Origin: Bacteroidales bacterium
GTDB lineage: Bacteria > Bacteroidota > Bacteroidia > Bacteroidales > UBA932
Assembly (NCBI GenBank): GCA_017651465.1
Contig: JAGCCX010000011.1
Location: 1-37,222, forward strand
Direction of reading: 5' to 3'
Length of the DNA stretch: 37,222 nucleotides
The notes beneath the pieces are model-generated. The model was not told the DNA's origin. It did not search any database and worked only from the letters and a program-made list of their open reading frames with translations. Below are positions 6,056-13,448 of the stretch, piece after piece. Positions within the stretch are counted from its first letter, which is position 1, and each line of letters begins with the position of its first letter. A program made the position numbers and the translations under genes.

Positions 6056-6946
6056 ATGACCAAACACTATAAAGTGGCGGGGCATCTGTTCTCGCTCTCC
6101 GCTCCCGAATCCTGTACCCTTTGGCCCAGGCTCTCGCAGTATGAGCCCTTCGAGGTGCCCGAGGGCAGCGGAGAGCCGCTCTTCAGCCTCGAGCTGGTAA
6201 AAGATATGTACGAGCCCCAGGCGGAGAGGGAACTTGTGTACGATGCTCCCACCGAGGAGGGCGAGACGGTTATAAAGCTCTATCACAACGCCGCCGGAGG
6301 CTGGGATTTCGATATGGCTCCGGACAAGGATTTGCCTTTCCACTCGCATATGCGCAGCAATGAGGACTTCAGCAGCGCGGTGCTTATGCTCGACAACCGC
6401 AAAGTATCCGAGGCGCTGTTCGGCATCAACAACTCGCTGATGCTCCTCTTCGCCTTCCGCACGGCGCCGCTCGATACCCTTGAGATGCACGCCTCTATGG
6501 TGGGCAACTCCGGCAAGGCCTTCCTCTTCCTGGCGCGCAGCGGTACGGGAAAAAGTACTCACAGCAGCCTATGGCTGGAGCACGTCCCCGGCACGGAGCT
6601 TATGAACGACGACAATCCCATAGTGCGGGTGTGGCCCGACGGCAGCATCATAGCTTACGGGTCTCCGTGGAGCGGAAAAACCCCGTGCTACCGCAATATC
6701 GAAGCCCCTGTGGGCGCATTTGTGCGTATCCGCCGCTGCTCCGAAAACAAGATAACCCCGCTCGGGCTGCTGGAATCGTACGCCCTGCTCTACTCGTCCA
6801 GTTCGGGCTTCAAGGCCGACAAGGCCATTGCCGACGGACTGCACTCCACCCTCGAAAGAATAGTTACCACCACACCTTGCTACGTGCTTGACTGCCGTCC
6901 CGACGAAGAAGCGGCCAGGGTGTGTTCAGCCGAAGTCCTGAAATGA
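6056..6946 (+). CDS. HPr-kinase/PEPCK-superfamily serine kinase-like protein
   Basis: The 296-residue protein carries an HprK/PEPCK-fold P-loop: HASMV (about 145-149), then FLARSGTGKSTHSSLW (about 158-173), NDDNPIV (about 184-190) and YGSPWSGKT (about 201-209). In HPr kinases and the HprK-like tailoring kinases of some lasso-peptide clusters these are the ATP site, metal site and closing loop. The N-terminal 140 residues are not the HprK N domain and may bind a substrate. It is first of four tightly coupled genes, the others being a serine protease, a PqqD-like protein and an ABC exporter. I infer that it phosphorylates a peptide or a Ser/Thr in a partner. True HPr phosphorylation is unlikely given this context. 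Confidence 0.75.
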   Translation: MTKHYKVAGHLFSLSAPESCTLWPRLSQYEPFEVPEGSGEPLFSLELVKDMYEPQAERELVYDAPTEEGETVIKLYHNAAGGWDFDMAPDKDLPFHSHMRSNEDFSSAVLMLDNRKVSEALFGINNSLMLLFAFRTAPLDTLEMHASMVGNSGKAFLFLARSGTGKSTHSSLWLEHVPGTELMNDDNPIVRVWPDGSIIAYGSPWSGKTPCYRNIEAPVGAFVRIRRCSENKITPLGLLESYALLYSSSSGFKADKAIADGLHSTLERIVTTTPCYVLDCRPDEEAARVCSAEVLK

Positions 6947-7401
6947 AGACGAGCAAGGTAGTGCTGCCCAATGCAGTGATGCTGGGCGAGGTTTCGAGGT
7001 TCCTGGGTGAGGGCAAGTCGGTGATTATCGCCACCAAGGGCTCAAGTATGTCGCCCTTCATCAGGGGAGAGCGCGACAGCGTGGAGCTGCTCAAGATGCC
7101 CGATGTGGCAGTGGGAGACATAGTGCTCTGCCAGCTGACTCCCGGGCACTACGTGCTTCACCGCGTGAACGCCATTGCGGGAGAGAGGCTTCGCCTGAAG
7201 GGAGACGGCAACCTTGACGCTACCGAATTATGCACCAAGGCCGATGTTTGCGGCACGGTGACCGCCATACTCCGCAAAGGCGAGAAGCGCATCGACTGCA
7301 CCACCCCGTGCTTCAAGCGCAGGAGCCGGATTTGGGTAGGCGCACCGAGGATTATAAGGCGCTATGCATTAGGAATTTACAGAAGAATTAAGATATTATG
7401 A
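6943..7401 (+). CDS. S24/S26-type serine protease (SipW/Sec11-like, soluble)
   Basis: The 152-residue protein starts at the ATG overlapping the kinase stop (ATGA). The motif GSSMSPF gives nucleophile Ser35. GDIVLCQL follows, then YVLHRV with His73 where bacterial LepB-type enzymes have Lys, and GDGNLD with Asp88/Asp92. This Ser-His-Asp order is that of the SipW/Sec11 (S26B) signal peptidases rather than of LepB. No membrane segment is obvious, unlike typical signal peptidases; the C terminus is Arg-rich (KRRSRIW, RIIRRYALGIYRRIK). I infer a cytoplasmic or peripheral processing protease for the same pathway as its neighbours, possibly removing a leader peptide. An in-frame ATG at 6922 was rejected as it lies inside the kinase gene. 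Confidence 0.72.
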   Translation: MKTSKVVLPNAVMLGEVSRFLGEGKSVIIATKGSSMSPFIRGERDSVELLKMPDVAVGDIVLCQLTPGHYVLHRVNAIAGERLRLKGDGNLDATELCTKADVCGTVTAILRKGEKRIDCTTPCFKRRSRIWVGAPRIIRRYALGIYRRIKIL

Positions 7402-7667
7402 AAACAGTACCTGGTTTTACCCTCCGTCCGCTCGGAAAAGAGTTTATCATTACAGCCGAGAGCATCCAGAAGATCAATTTCAACAAGATGATCTCGCTCA
7501 ATGAGTCGGCGGCTTTTCTGTGGAAAGAAGTTGACGGAAAGGAGTTTACCCCCGAAGATCTGGCCGACCTGCTGGTAGGCCGTTACGAGGTTGACCGCGA
7601 GACCGCTCTCAAAGATTCGGAGGCTATTGCCGCCAAATGGATTGAAGCCGGAATAGTTACTGAGTAG
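7398..7667 (+). CDS. PqqD-like protein (RiPP recognition element fold)
   Basis: The 89-residue protein has the PqqD pattern. N-terminal strands are followed by the block KMISLNESAAFLWKEVDG, then the helices EFTPEDLADLLVGRY and DRETALKDSEAIAAKWIEAGIV. PqqD and related RRE domains bind the leader of a precursor peptide and present it to modifying enzymes. The start overlaps the protease stop by ATGA and the stop is 2 nt from the exporter ATG, so all four proteins are probably made together. No PQQ biosynthesis, radical SAM or lasso cyclase gene is in the window, so the cognate peptide is unknown. Confidence 0.82.
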   Translation: MKTVPGFTLRPLGKEFIITAESIQKINFNKMISLNESAAFLWKEVDGKEFTPEDLADLLVGRYEVDRETALKDSEAIAAKWIEAGIVTE

Positions 7668-7669
7668 TA

Positions 7670-9304
7670 ATGAGGCCTTTCCGCTCGTGTTTCAGGGGTT
7701 TGATGCGTATGGTGCGCGGACAGAGGTTCCGCGTACTGGTAAGCGTGTTGATAGGTTTGGTGGGCGTTGCAGCCTCCCTTGGATTCGTGTGGATATCTAA
7801 GAAGGTGGTGGATTTGGCCACCGGCGCTGCCGGGTCTGAACTGACTCCCTTCGTGCTTGTTATGCTCGGCATTATGCTGCTTCAGCTGCTATGCCGGGTG
7901 GGAGGCCGTTATTGGGAGGGCCTGATAGTGGTGAAGGCGCAGAACGCCCTTCGCTCGTCGGCTTTTCGCAAGGTTATGTTCAGCACCTGGAGCGGCAAAG
8001 ACCGCCTTCACAGCGGCGATACCGTAAGCCGTCTGGAGGAGGATATCAGGGTGGTGGTGGACTTTATCTGCGTGAGCCTTCCCGACGCCCTGATAACGAT
8101 CATACAGTTGCTTGCCGCGTCGGCCTACATCTTTGTGCTTTCGCCCAACCTGGCCTGGATACTGCTGCTGATTATGCCCGTTGCAGTGCTCTGCAGCCGT
8201 CTTTTCTTTAAAAAGCTGCGGGCCCTCACCGGCGAAATCCGCTCGGGCGACGCCCGCGTGCAAGGGCACATCCAGGAGAATACCCAGCGCCGTGTGCTGG
8301 TGCGTATGCTCGGGGCAACCGGGCGGGTGATCGAAAAGCTCGGAGGCTTGCAGGAGTATGTGTACGGCAAGACTGTTACCCGCCTTAACTACAATGCTAT
8401 CTCGCGCGGGTTTATGCAGCTTGGCTTCTCGGCCGGGTACGCCCTAGTATTTCTGTGGGGCGTGTTCGGCCTGCGTGACGGAACCATTGGTTACGGCACA
8501 ATGGTGGCTTTCCTGCAGTTGGTGGGGCAGGTCCAGCGCCCGGTGGCGGGCATTGCGATGCAGATTCCCGCCTTCATCCGCGCCCTTTCTTCCGAAGACC
8601 GTCTTCTCGACCTGGTGGAGGCGCCCCAGGAAGAAGAGGGGAGCGATATTGTGCTGCAGGGTGCTCCCGGCGTGAAGGTTGAGGGCGTGAGCTTTACTTA
8701 TGAGGGCGTCAACAACCCGGTGGTGCGGGGGCTCGATTTCGATTTTACGCCCGGTTCTATGACGGCCATCATTGGTTCGACCGGCGCCGGCAAGTCAACT
8801 TTGGTACGTGTCATTATGGCCCTGCTGCCGCCCGACTGCGGTTCCATTACACTTTACGACGGCACCGGCGCGCGTGTCCCTTCGGGCGTGAGGACGCGTT
8901 GCAATTTTATGTATGTGCCGCAGGGTAATTCGTTGATGAGCGGTACTATACGTGAGAATCTGCTGCTGGCCAAGCCGGATGCTACCGACGATGAATTGAG
9001 GGAGGTGCTGCATTTGGCGGCGGCGGATTTCGTGTACGATTTGCAGGATTCGCTTGAGACTACTTGCGCGGAGATCGGGGCTGGTTTGAGTGAGGGGCAG
9101 GCTCAGCGTATCGCTATTGCGCGTGCTTTGTTGAGGCCGGGCGGGATTCTGGTTCTCGACGAGGCGACTTCGGCTCTGGATGCCGATACGGAGCTGGAGT
9201 TGTTGGAGAGGCTGGGGGCGAGGTTCCGCGGCTCCAAGACCATCCTTTGTATTACCCATCGTCCTGCAGCTACTTCCTACGCCGATAAAGTGCTGAAGTT
9301 GTAG
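7670..9304 (+). CDS. ABC transporter, fused permease and ATPase
   Basis: The 544-residue half-transporter has a six-helix exporter-type membrane domain (about 20-300). The ATPase domain has Walker A GSTGAGKST (369-377), Q-loop YVPQG (415-419), signature LSEGQ (473-477), Walker B ILVLDEAT (493-500) and an H-loop THR (about 530). There is no N-terminal C39 peptidase domain, so it is not a self-processing bacteriocin exporter; a separate protease is encoded two genes upstream. It most likely exports the product of the cassette, working as a homodimer in the inner membrane. A lipid or drug substrate cannot be excluded from sequence alone. Confidence 0.88.
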   Translation: MRPFRSCFRGLMRMVRGQRFRVLVSVLIGLVGVAASLGFVWISKKVVDLATGAAGSELTPFVLVMLGIMLLQLLCRVGGRYWEGLIVVKAQNALRSSAFRKVMFSTWSGKDRLHSGDTVSRLEEDIRVVVDFICVSLPDALITIIQLLAASAYIFVLSPNLAWILLLIMPVAVLCSRLFFKKLRALTGEIRSGDARVQGHIQENTQRRVLVRMLGATGRVIEKLGGLQEYVYGKTVTRLNYNAISRGFMQLGFSAGYALVFLWGVFGLRDGTIGYGTMVAFLQLVGQVQRPVAGIAMQIPAFIRALSSEDRLLDLVEAPQEEEGSDIVLQGAPGVKVEGVSFTYEGVNNPVVRGLDFDFTPGSMTAIIGSTGAGKSTLVRVIMALLPPDCGSITLYDGTGARVPSGVRTRCNFMYVPQGNSLMSGTIRENLLLAKPDATDDELREVLHLAAADFVYDLQDSLETTCAEIGAGLSEGQAQRIAIARALLRPGGILVLDEATSALDADTELELLERLGARFRGSKTILCITHRPAATSYADKVLKL

Positions 9305-9553: not shown

Positions 9554-10483
9554 TCAGAATCCGGGGGAGGTCCAGGTGAGGTCGGAAGTAATGAGGCAGG
9601 CCTCAATGCCCGGGTGTTCCTCCACCCAGCTGCGGGCCTGTTCGAAACCAATCACCATAAAGTATGTAGCCAGGGCGTCAGCCTCGGTGGCCGTGGGCGC
9701 TATCACCGTGGCACTCAGCAGGTTATGATCCACCGGATATCCGGTCCTGGGGTCGATGGTGTGGGCGTATTTCTTGCCGTCTTTGATGTAGAACTTGCGG
9801 TAGTTGCCCGACGTTACCACCCCGTATGCGCCGCCGTCGGAGCGCCAGAGTCCCGAGATTGACGCCCCGGGAGTGTTGTTCCCGTCGGAGGGAGTGTCTA
9901 TAGCGATGGTCCAGCCGCGGCCCTTGGGATTGACGCCCTCGCAGTAGATTTCGCCTATATCCACCAGCATATCCTTCACCCCTATCGAATGCAGGTAGGC
10001 GGCCACCTTGTCGCAGCTGTAGCCTTGGGCTATAGCGTTGAAATTCAATACTTCCCGCCTGCGGCAACGCTCCCTTGCGGCGGCGATTATCTCCTCCGAG
10101 GGCAGGCTGTCGGAGGTGAATCCGAAGCCCCACACGTCGAACAGGGGCCCGGCGGCTACGTCGAACGCTCCCTCGCTCAACTGGCGGTAGTGCTCAGATA
10201 TCTCTTCCAGCTCGCGGAACATATCGTTGAGTTCGACCACTTCGCCGGCGTTCCTGCGGCTCAGAATCGACTTGCGGTTGTATCCCGAGAGCGTGGTGTC
10301 GATCGCTTCCAGTATCCCGTCCACCGCCTGCTGCGCCTCGGCGCGGCTCACCTTCACCCCTGCGGGATTGTATTTTACGCTGTAGATGCCGCCCTGGGCA
10401 TAGCCGCCCAGAGTCACATAATTCTGCGTGCAGGCACACGAAACCAACGCAGCAATGGCTAAAAGTGCTGTTTTTAGCTTCAT
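9554..10483 (-). CDS. apbE: FAD:protein FMN transferase (ApbE family lipoprotein)
   Basis: ApbE attaches FMN covalently to Thr/Ser of target flavoproteins such as NqrB/NqrC and RnfG/RnfD, acting outside the cytoplasmic membrane. The 309-residue product starts with a lipoprotein signal (lipobox LVSC at 13-16). It shows the family blocks SEGAFDVAAGPLFDVWGF, NFNAIAQGYSCDKV (about 147-160), VDIGEIYCEGVNPKGRGW and HTIDPRTGYPV (241-251). A longer open frame extends far upstream, but the Met at 10483 is right because it opens the signal peptide and lies 19 nt after a minus-strand TACCTTTG box (10510-10503). No target flavoprotein gene is nearby. Confidence 0.92.
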   Translation of the reverse strand: MKLKTALLAIAALVSCACTQNYVTLGGYAQGGIYSVKYNPAGVKVSRAEAQQAVDGILEAIDTTLSGYNRKSILSRRNAGEVVELNDMFRELEEISEHYRQLSEGAFDVAAGPLFDVWGFGFTSDSLPSEEIIAAARERCRRREVLNFNAIAQGYSCDKVAAYLHSIGVKDMLVDIGEIYCEGVNPKGRGWTIAIDTPSDGNNTPGASISGLWRSDGGAYGVVTSGNYRKFYIKDGKKYAHTIDPRTGYPVDHNLLSATVIAPTATEADALATYFMVIGFEQARSWVEEHPGIEACLITSDLTWTSPGF

Positions 10484-10502
10484 TTTCGGCAAAGTATTTG
10501 TA

Positions 10503-10510
10503 CAAAGGTA
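10503..10510 (-). promoter_or_regulatory. Candidate -7 box for apbE
   Basis: On the minus strand this reads TACCTTTG, a full match to TAnnTTTG, 19 nt before the apbE start codon. No -33 element is evident. Confidence 0.45.
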
Positions 10511-10561
10511 GCGGAAATTCGCGTAAAATTGACCATATTTGCAATTTGTAACCCTAAAAAG

Positions 10562-11581
10562 ATGAATTTTAAAACATACTGCATACTCGCTCTGGGACTT
10601 GTTTTGCTTTCCGTTTCTTCCTGCAAAGAGAAAGAAATCGAAAAGACATATATGAACGGAAAGCTCAAGATAGACTGCAAGATTCCGCATTTTGTCAATC
10701 CCGGAGACTCTTTCACCATCACGGCATCGGGCATTACCGCCCCCGACGGAACGGACGTAGCGTATTATTGCACATCCACCGCCGACAGCAAGCGCCGCGA
10801 TTCTCTTTTTACCGTTCCAGCCGTATTCCATTTCGAGGTTCCCGATACCCTCGGCCAGTTCACCCTCTCGGTGGTGGCCTATCCGGTCCAGTCGTCGGAC
10901 AAGTATTATCACTCCACCGGTTCGGTTGAATTCGTGATTGTCAAAGACGACGCCGACAACGGGTCCCTCACCGGCATCCCCAATCACGACGACGACCTGG
11001 TGGAGGAGCTCCATTCGAGGAAGTACAACGTTACTTCGGCCGGCGGCAGGGAGTGGATACGCAGCAACCTGAGCTATGTGGAGCGTGACCCGGACGGAAC
11101 AGAGACCTTCGGCCGTTCGTACGCCGGCAGCAAGGCTATGCAGAACATCTTCGGCGCATATTACACCTGGGAAGAGGCTCAGCAGGCCTGTCCCCTCGGG
11201 TGGCATCTTCCCTCCGACCAGGAGTGGGTCGATCTGCTCAAGAGCTGCGGCGCTCCTTCCGCTCTCAAGCCCCTGGAAAACTCGCCCAGCGGCGCCGGGG
11301 CGCTTATGGTAAAGGCCCGTTTCAACGGCGACGAAATGTGGAGCTACTACCGCGGAGTGAACATTACCGACAAGTGCATCAGCGTCATCCCAGCCGGCTA
11401 TGCCGTCAAGGAGGCGAGCGGCTGGACATACATAGGTTACCAGGCTTATGCTGCATTCTGGACCGCCGACTCCCTGGAGGGGCAAGGGGTGTACCGCTAC
11501 ATTTACAAAGAAAACGACAACGTATTCGTGTCCTCGGCGAGCAAGACCGATTTTGCCGCCAGCGTCCGATGCGTGCGATGA
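10562..11581 (+). CDS. FISUMP-domain lipoprotein of unknown function
   Basis: The 339-residue product begins with a lipoprotein signal (Cys21 after LLSVSS). Residues about 35-135 form a beta-rich region. From about 150 on is a FISUMP domain (Fibrobacter succinogenes major paralogous domain) with GREWIRSNLSYVE, YYTWEEAQQACPLGWHLPSDQEWVDLL and, at the end, AASVRCVR. FISUMP proteins are surface or outer-membrane-anchored in Bacteroidota and Fibrobacterota and have no established enzymatic role. I start at MNFKTY, as the upstream in-frame Met (10529) would put 11 residues before the signal. Its stop is 1 nt before the RelA/SpoT gene, so the two are probably co-transcribed. Confidence 0.82.
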   Translation: MNFKTYCILALGLVLLSVSSCKEKEIEKTYMNGKLKIDCKIPHFVNPGDSFTITASGITAPDGTDVAYYCTSTADSKRRDSLFTVPAVFHFEVPDTLGQFTLSVVAYPVQSSDKYYHSTGSVEFVIVKDDADNGSLTGIPNHDDDLVEELHSRKYNVTSAGGREWIRSNLSYVERDPDGTETFGRSYAGSKAMQNIFGAYYTWEEAQQACPLGWHLPSDQEWVDLLKSCGAPSALKPLENSPSGAGALMVKARFNGDEMWSYYRGVNITDKCISVIPAGYAVKEASGWTYIGYQAYAAFWTADSLEGQGVYRYIYKENDNVFVSSASKTDFAASVRCVR

Positions 11582-11582
11582 T

Positions 11583-13448
11583 ATGGACCAGACAGAAAGG
11601 ATACAAGAAGCCGCTCAGCACGTATTTGACGTGATGGCCAAGCGCGTGGGCCCGGAGGACCTGCAGCGCATCAAAGATGCGTATGCCCTTGCCGCCGAGG
11701 CGCACAAGGACCAGAGACGCAACACCGGCGAGCCGTACATCGTGCATCCCATCGCCGTCGCCAACATAGCGGCGGAGGAGCTCGAACTGGACGCCAATAC
11801 CGTCATAGCCGCTTTCCTGCACGACGTAGCTGAGGATACTTCTTATACCGTAGAGGATATCAGGGAGCGTTTCGGCGACGACGTGGCCTTCCTGGTGGAT
11901 GTGGTGACCAAGCGCAAGAAGCACAACTACGAGTTCACCAAGCAGGTGGACAATTACCGCCAGATACTCGAATCGGTGCACTACGACATCCGCGCCCTGC
12001 TCGTCAAGCTGTCCGACCGTCTGCACAATATGCGTACGCTCGACAGTATGCGCCCCGACAAGCAGATGAAGATCGCCGGCGAAACCGACTTCTTCTATGC
12101 CCCTCTCGCCGGCCGTCTGGGCCTGTATCACGTCAAGACCGAGCTGGAGAACCTATCGTTCCATTTCCGCTGCCCGCGCGAGTACGACGTGATTTCCCGC
12201 CAGCTGGAGGAGGACAAGATCAGGACCCAGGGCGCTGTGGACGATTTTACCGCCGAGATCAACGAGATCTTCAAGACCATAGGCATTCCCGCCCGCACCC
12301 AGGTCCGTTACCGCAAGCCCTACAGCATCTGGCGCACTATGCGCGAGGAAGGCTGCGACTTCGCCCACGTGGATTTCAAGCACTTTGTGCGTATTATCTA
12401 TACCCCTATCAATGAATGGCTGCGTTCCCAATCTCCGGAGAAGGATACCAGCCTTTTCATTTATTCCTGCCTGTCTGGGCGTTTCAAGGAGCGCCCGGGG
12501 AGCGTGGTCAACTATATCGACAACCCCAAGGACAACGGCTACCAGAGCTTCCACGTGCAGCTGCTCAACCGCGCCGGGGCCTGGGAAGAGATGCACATCG
12601 CCTCGGAGCGGATGCACCGCAACTCGAGGCTCGGCTGCATAGTCGAGCGTGGCGAGAGCTGGCTGGAGCGCTTCAAGACCGTACTGCAGAACATCGCCGA
12701 CAGCGGTGACGGATACATCTTTATGGACGGAGTGAGTTCGTCGCTGTACAACGAGGACATTCTTGCCTTCACCCCCAACGGCAAGGGAATTATCCTGCCC
12801 AAGGGAGCCACCGCGCTGGACTTCGCGTTCGAGGTGCATACCGAGATAGGCGAGAAGGCCAAGTTCGCCCGTATCAACGGCGCGCTTTGCCCAATCAAGA
12901 CGGAACTTCACCGCGGTGACTGTGTGGAGATAGGCACTTCCGACGACGTGGTGCCCAAGCCCGACTGGCTGAATTACGCCAAGACTTACAAGGCCCGCCG
13001 CCGTCTGCACGACCTGCTCCGCAATATCCCGACCCCCGACTTCAAAATATGCGACCGCTGCCATCCCATTCCGGGAGAGGAGGTCATAGGCTATGTCGAT
13101 GCAAACGGGCAGGTGACTATGCACAGCCGCCATTGCCCCGAGGTCATAAAGCTCGCGTCCGAAGACGGCAACAGCCTGGTGTCGGTGCCCTTCGAGCCCG
13201 ACCCTTTGCAGCTCTATCCCGTGCGCATACGCATAGTCGCCATCGACCGCTACCATCTGCTGCGCGACATAATCGACTGCTTCGTGGAGCGCCAGCACCT
13301 GTCTATGAACAAGTTGAGCACCCACACCGAAGACGAGATAGTGGAGTGCATCATCGACTTCCCCGTACATTCGGTAGACGAGCTCCACATTACTATGGAG
13401 AGCATCTCGGCTATCGACGGAGTCGATGAGGTGCAGCGTATCATATAG
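11583..13448 (+). CDS. RelA/SpoT homologue, intact hydrolase and degenerate synthetase
   Basis: The 621-residue protein has the HD-TGS-ACT layout of (p)ppGpp enzymes. The hydrolase is intact: His55 in VHP, His80-Asp81 in FLHDVAED and Asp145 in LSDRLHNMRTL. The synthetase region (about 235-350) keeps NPKDNGYQSFH, but the motif normally EIQIRT reads EMHIAS. The GRxKxxYS block reads RYRKPYS with a missing position, and the catalytic Asp region reads VDFKHFVRII. A TGS domain (about 393-455), a zinc-finger-like CDRCH...HSRHC segment (about 490-518) and an ACT domain (545-621) follow. I infer a mainly hydrolytic, SpoT-like role. Start is 1 nt after the FISUMP stop; the end overlaps comEC-like gene convergently by 8 bp. 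Confidence 0.85.
   Translation: MDQTERIQEAAQHVFDVMAKRVGPEDLQRIKDAYALAAEAHKDQRRNTGEPYIVHPIAVANIAAEELELDANTVIAAFLHDVAEDTSYTVEDIRERFGDDVAFLVDVVTKRKKHNYEFTKQVDNYRQILESVHYDIRALLVKLSDRLHNMRTLDSMRPDKQMKIAGETDFFYAPLAGRLGLYHVKTELENLSFHFRCPREYDVISRQLEEDKIRTQGAVDDFTAEINEIFKTIGIPARTQVRYRKPYSIWRTMREEGCDFAHVDFKHFVRIIYTPINEWLRSQSPEKDTSLFIYSCLSGRFKERPGSVVNYIDNPKDNGYQSFHVQLLNRAGAWEEMHIASERMHRNSRLGCIVERGESWLERFKTVLQNIADSGDGYIFMDGVSSSLYNEDILAFTPNGKGIILPKGATALDFAFEVHTEIGEKAKFARINGALCPIKTELHRGDCVEIGTSDDVVPKPDWLNYAKTYKARRRLHDLLRNIPTPDFKICDRCHPIPGEEVIGYVDANGQVTMHSRHCPEVIKLASEDGNSLVSVPFEPDPLQLYPVRIRIVAIDRYHLLRDIIDCFVERQHLSMNKLSTHTEDEIVECIIDFPVHSVDELHITMESISAIDGVDEVQRII

Follow-up and report, generated by a model that had tools for sequence, protein, structure and literature searches.

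An LPP-like kinase, peptidase, RRE and exporter cassette of Bacteroidales and its remote candidate precursor peptides

What does a compact cassette encoding a kinase, a peptidase, a PqqD-like protein and an exporter act upon when no precursor peptide is recognised beside it? The question is raised by a 37,222-nucleotide stretch of DNA from a Bacteroidales bacterium (contig JAGCCX010000011.1; hereafter the window), in which four linked genes had been predicted to add phosphate to a peptide bound by an RRE domain, cleave it and send it out of the cell, in an assembly unlike all known classes. The first part of that interpretation stands, being well supported by sequence and predicted fold as a putative function; the second does not, since the Bacillota pathway for linear polyphosphorylated peptides (LPP) has the same parts. 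We conclude that the four genes form, in all likelihood, the common module that matures and exports the products of an LPP-type pathway for linear, phosphorylated RiPPs, with precursors encoded remotely. The evidence comprises the module and its conservation, predicted folds, YxxP-binding residues, a precursor family, gene linkages and co-occurrence across genomes.

The cassette was confirmed as originally described. Its first gene, K (6056..6946, + strand), encodes a 296-residue HprK/PEPCK-like, LppK-like kinase with a P-loop (SGTGKST) and an NDD motif; G163, G165-K166-S167-T168 and N184-D185-D186 are invariant in 26 of 26 aligned sequences. P (6943..7401, +) encodes a 152-residue S26-type Ser/His peptidase resembling LppS and SipW, for which the S26 fold is predicted and in which no membrane helix was evident by eye. 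D (7398..7667, +) encodes an 89-residue discrete RRE of the PqqD fold, like LppB and the lasso B1 proteins, and structure prediction returned the RRE fold that the original prediction had expected. T (7670..9304, +) encodes a 544-residue LppD-like ABC exporter with permease and ATPase domains (PF00664 and PF00005), in which a Pfam scan found no C39 domain. By profile score T does not fall with the lipid A flippases: its top NCBIfam scores, 229.9 bits for LssB and 227.4 bits for MsbA, are both well under the family cut-offs, which for MsbA is 602 bits. Strong purifying selection acts on K, P, D and T alike.

Searches with K and P, and the gene neighbourhoods of K, bore out the expectation that the four families co-occur in other genomes. 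Of 200 relative genomes, 111 carry K (E<=1e-3) and 106 carry P (E<=1e-5); at E<=1e-10, K was detected in 58 of the 393 genomes searched for the order and in 13 of the 395 for the phylum. Some weak K matches may belong to other systems or to other HprK-like kinases. Among named GTDB contigs, the best 80 of at least 587 confirmed K relatives were examined, and these come mostly from Bacteroidales MAGs of ruminant and other gut samples, together with the isolate Segatella baroniae B14. In these best 80 loci, P and D each lie near K in 70, T in 53, and a gene for a PF14907-like NTP transferase (N) in 17; K, P, D and T are all present in 50, of which 44 lack N and 6 have it. Gene order varies between species, and the cassette genes thus remain together despite rearrangement. 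A longer K variant (about 360 residues or more) occurs without adjoining P, D or T at L062 (9171-10253, with neighbours that resemble rpiB and truB by eye), L063, L064, L065 and L066; these genomes carry P elsewhere, so the cassette is split there.

LPP, reported in May 2026, are encoded by lppA-K-B-S-D-N in Paenibacillus alginolyticus, and in that study (PMC13381572) the functions of LppK, LppS and LppB are established by experiment, with LppB gripping YxxP via N33 and D70, core Ser3 as the residue that LppK polyphosphorylates, and LppS cleaving after the leader only when LppB is present. The same study confines LPP and paeninodins to Bacillota, describes the main LPP peptidase cluster as predominantly from Bacillota, places LPP clusters of Bacilli often within capsule loci, and goes no further on their role than speculation about biofilms (PMC13381572). 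LPP and the window cassette have in common an HprK-like kinase, a SipW-like SpI Ser/His peptidase, a discrete RRE and an MsbA-like exporter, and LPP and the Bacteroidales peptides described below share a YxxP leader and a Ser shortly past it. As in LPP, the window's own genome encodes an NTP transferase, and it has no lasso cyclase above cut-off and no B2 protease. By HMMER alignment, LppB N33 corresponds to Asn35 of the window D, conserved in 31 of 31 sequences, and LppB D70 to Asp73, conserved in 29 of 31. Profile scores place TfuB1 (E 1e-7) above PbaB1 (9x90, 0.002) and LppB (9x8z, 0.036) for D; the last two were not among the structure matches listed for D, which carries no weight.

Several differences stand out. 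The NTP transferase belongs to the core LPP cluster, whereas the window cassette has no N; the single NTP_transf_5 (PF14907) gene of the window's own genome (L137, 9246-10328; G000:C18) is apart from the cassette and sits among genes that by eye resemble glycan-synthesis genes. The LPP precursor lies within or near its cluster, whereas in our genome the candidate precursors are remote from the cassette and numerous. Of the LPP consensus YxxPxVLxHQxIxFETxxS, the segment VLxHQxIxFET is absent here, with YxxP and the approximate Ser spacing kept (P+16 here, P+15 in LPP), and the predicted cut is [AC]/x-Ser instead of FET/AQS. The peptides are paired with surface lipoproteins, unlike those of LPP, and the phylum is Bacteroidota rather than Bacillota. 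Because the cassette lacks N, its cluster lacks a precursor and the leader consensus differs past YxxP and Ser, we describe the system as LPP-like and not as a member of LPP. A search of open-licence PMC literature found neither LPP-type clusters in Bacteroidota nor YxxP peptides beside surface lipoproteins; as far as that search reaches, the second phylum, the remote and numerous precursors and the partner lipoproteins are new.

The original prediction had found no recognisable precursor in the window. A scan with a leader model likewise found none there, but a candidate family is recognisable outside it, and the proposed hunt for short ORFs nearby and elsewhere in the genomes did yield a conserved YxxP peptide family. 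The first clue was that short ORFs adjoining distant cassettes have common YxxP...EV leaders, two of which match the paeninodin precursor model NF033524 weakly (E 0.017 and 0.042). A leader model of 25 columns, built from 23 leaders, gave 28 matches of at least 11 bits among 15549 short ORFs of the examined loci, and no reversed or shuffled ORF reached that score; since 23 of these matches had themselves trained the model, the control speaks for its specificity and does not make them 28 independent discoveries. The window's own genome has 11 such peptides at E<=0.02, all 11 of which were inspected, and 13 at E<=0.05. Core statistics were taken from 35 peptides outside the first model, which were chosen by leader models and are hence biased. 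Of these 35, 32 have a Ser between P+15 and P+17, and in 25 it stands at P+16. Among the 32, 24 carry A or C at Ser-2 and 29 carry I, L or F at Ser-3; the tails, counted from this Ser, have a median length of 18.5 residues and 23% D+E, are free of Cys throughout, and carry W or F among their last four residues in 23. Cores vary strongly among the YxxP ORFs.

Some of the peptide genes are linked to the cassette itself. Ten leader matches of at least 11 bits lie inside the best 80 of at least 587 K loci. Peptide genes stand immediately upstream of K at L068, L108, L110 and L115, and close to D at L118. All five of L166-L170 have K-P-D-N, then a peptide, then a lipoprotein; L219 has the order peptide, lipoprotein, K, P, D, N; and L244, from a Bacteroides sp. 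MAG, carries K, P, D, N, T, peptide and lipoprotein in a single run. For the window's genus, a precursor adjoining the cassette was considered and set aside, as this holds at only some loci (L038, next to D; L178, near K).

The peptide genes are also paired with genes for surface lipoproteins. In the window's own genome, 11 of 11 peptides precede (within about 70 nt) or overlap a long lipobox ORF, ten called by rule and one (C52:46617) by eye. By rule, 18 of the 28 leader matches are followed by a lipoprotein gene, compared with 100 lipoproteins among 1214 background genes (p 7e-13, with partners judged on the longest possible ORF and background genes on called starts); by eye, so are four more (L135 8564, L038, L044 and L103). 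A second set, partly overlapping the 28, held 24 loci with a recognised peptide after 10 with a missing or wrong frame were dropped. In it the partner is a lipoprotein by rule in 13 and by eye at L125 and L151, the peptide is followed by K at L147 and L153, and no partner lipoprotein was found within 3 kb at L140, L146, L152, L156, L160, L161 and L165 (7 of 24). A further 12 loci yielded 12 peptides in 11 loci, nine with a lipoprotein; none was found at L260, L262 and L264. Pfam was mostly silent on 20 partner lipoproteins, whose C-terminal domains are mixed (Lcl_C, BACON, NAGPA, GDSL, GLUG and Big), the Lcl_C, Big_2 and Big_3 matches being below cut-off. We call the N-terminal region of the partners fimbrillin-like because Mfa_like_1 matched one of them, below its cut-off, and because a T[RKA]...W..GD pattern, chosen post hoc, occurs in 14 of 18 partners, compared with 20 of the 84 lipoproteins outside this set.

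Peptide and K co-occur across genomes. In the order, both were found in 24 genomes, the peptide alone in 3, K alone in 34 and neither in 332 (p 2e-19), a tally that assumes the same 393 genomes in both searches; with the window's own genus and the model A6 genomes removed, the counts are 14, 3, 34 and 332 (p 2e-11). The corresponding figures are 88, 8, 12 and 13 in the genus (p 4e-6) and 5, 0, 6 and 68 in other relatives (p 2e-5), and all of these p values overstate independence, the genomes being related. In the phylum, two of 198 genomes (G000, the window's own, and G514) are peptide-positive; both have K and both fed the leader model. Counting against the proposed link, the peptide was not found at E<=0.02 in 34 of the 58 K-positive genomes of the order, and the three peptide-positive genomes lacking K there are G286, G359 and G413. 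Of the eight such genomes in the genus, three (G010, G046 and G111) have P. Another of the eight, G032 (91% complete), is an exception to the co-occurrence: the leader model matches it 16 times at E<=0.05, yet searches detected no K or P in it. Four of these matches were inspected (L256-L259), and all lie upstream of a lipoprotein gene, one of them 194 nt away.

From sequence, and by analogy with LPP, we infer an order of binding, phosphorylation, cutting and export. D would bind the YxxP part of the precursor leader, and K would phosphorylate the conserved Ser shortly past it. P, with its substrate presented by D, would then cut off the leader where a small residue ([AC]) stands between a preceding I, L or F and a following x-Ser; a small residue before the cut would suit an S26 peptidase. 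T would export the acidic, Cys-free core of about 20 residues. In the window's genus one module would serve many remote precursors, and N may act in trans. Since the precursor genes lie just upstream of those for large surface lipoproteins, the product and the lipoprotein probably work together at the cell surface. A fuller reading, for and against which we judge the chances evenly balanced, is a dispersed RiPP system, in which an in-trans module phosphorylates and exports about a dozen different linear peptides. Each peptide would be encoded alongside, and perhaps translated together with, a fimbrillin-like lipoprotein of its own, and gut Bacteroidales would in this way match phosphorylated peptides to their surface adhesins.

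The position of the YxxP ORFs, which often directly precede or overlap a lipoprotein start, together with their highly variable cores, would also fit regulatory upstream ORFs that control lipoprotein translation, the cassette processing something else. We consider this improbable: the leader motif matches LPP and lasso precursors, some of the peptides are encoded upstream of K or next to a cassette, they co-occur with K, and their tails are acidic and Cys-free with a Ser at a near-fixed distance. Lipoproteins are Sec/SPII substrates bearing their own signals. This speaks against the somewhat less probable proposal that the cassette modifies the surface lipoproteins, with the peptide a mere tag or chaperone; tight pairing (18 of 28 next genes) favours such a role, but an RRE, an S26 peptidase and an exporter better suit a small leader peptide, and at L068, L108, L110 and L115 the peptide precedes K, not a lipoprotein.

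A degenerate paeninodin-type lasso pathway that has lost its cyclase and B2 protease is very unlikely and was already disfavoured. The paeninodin-type pathway does share with this system an HprK-like kinase, a PqqD RRE, an NTP transferase and a Y/WxxP leader, and the weak NF033524 matches point the same way. However, an S26 peptidase takes the place of B2, and all four genes are under strong purifying selection. The reported absence of a lasso cyclase and B2 from the window extends to the whole of G000 (95% complete), which has no asparagine synthase (PF00733) match above cut-off, the one sub-cut-off match lying in the window at 2120-2428 (18.5 against 21 bits), and no B2 (PF13471) match at E<=0.01. 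The SynChlorMet (Scm) families of NCBIfam matched the cassette weakly (ScmC, E 0.016; ScmD, E 0.049), far under their cut-offs, and the cassette has no radical SAM gene.

LPP-like machinery, with a likely precursor family, is thus widespread in gut and rumen Bacteroidales, and its layout of one cassette and many remote precursors would be overlooked by cluster-based genome mining. The physical link to surface lipoproteins makes peptide function testable, and Segatella baroniae B14 (L231, N-K-P-D) offers a culturable test host. At that locus a radical SAM-like protein is encoded nearby (10079-11389, - strand), and neither T nor a scoring YxxP peptide was found within the 12.8 kb examined. If the dispersed-RiPP reading is true, LPP-type chemistry would be a common surface function of Bacteroidales, not a rarity of Bacillota.

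Two further roles were considered and rejected. One was polysaccharide export, raised by Wza/Wzc-like neighbours at L101, the one locus scanned for such genes. The other was a radical-SAM RiPP, raised by a SPASM-like pair at L061, yet the corresponding radical SAM model matched only one of the best 80 of at least 587 K loci (L231). At L061 (9667-12664, - strand), two radical SAM/SPASM-like proteins and a second PqqD-like protein adjoin K-P-D. Directly upstream of the outer SPASM-like gene is an FxxP peptide frame with Cys (12548-12664), truncated where the contig stops; these genes may form a second RiPP branch with a similar leader. Among the partner lipoproteins, that of L134 (2189-6190, - strand), with 1334 residues, ends in a C-terminal NAGPA phosphodiester glycosidase domain (E 2.7e-14), a curious neighbour for a putative phosphopeptide gene.
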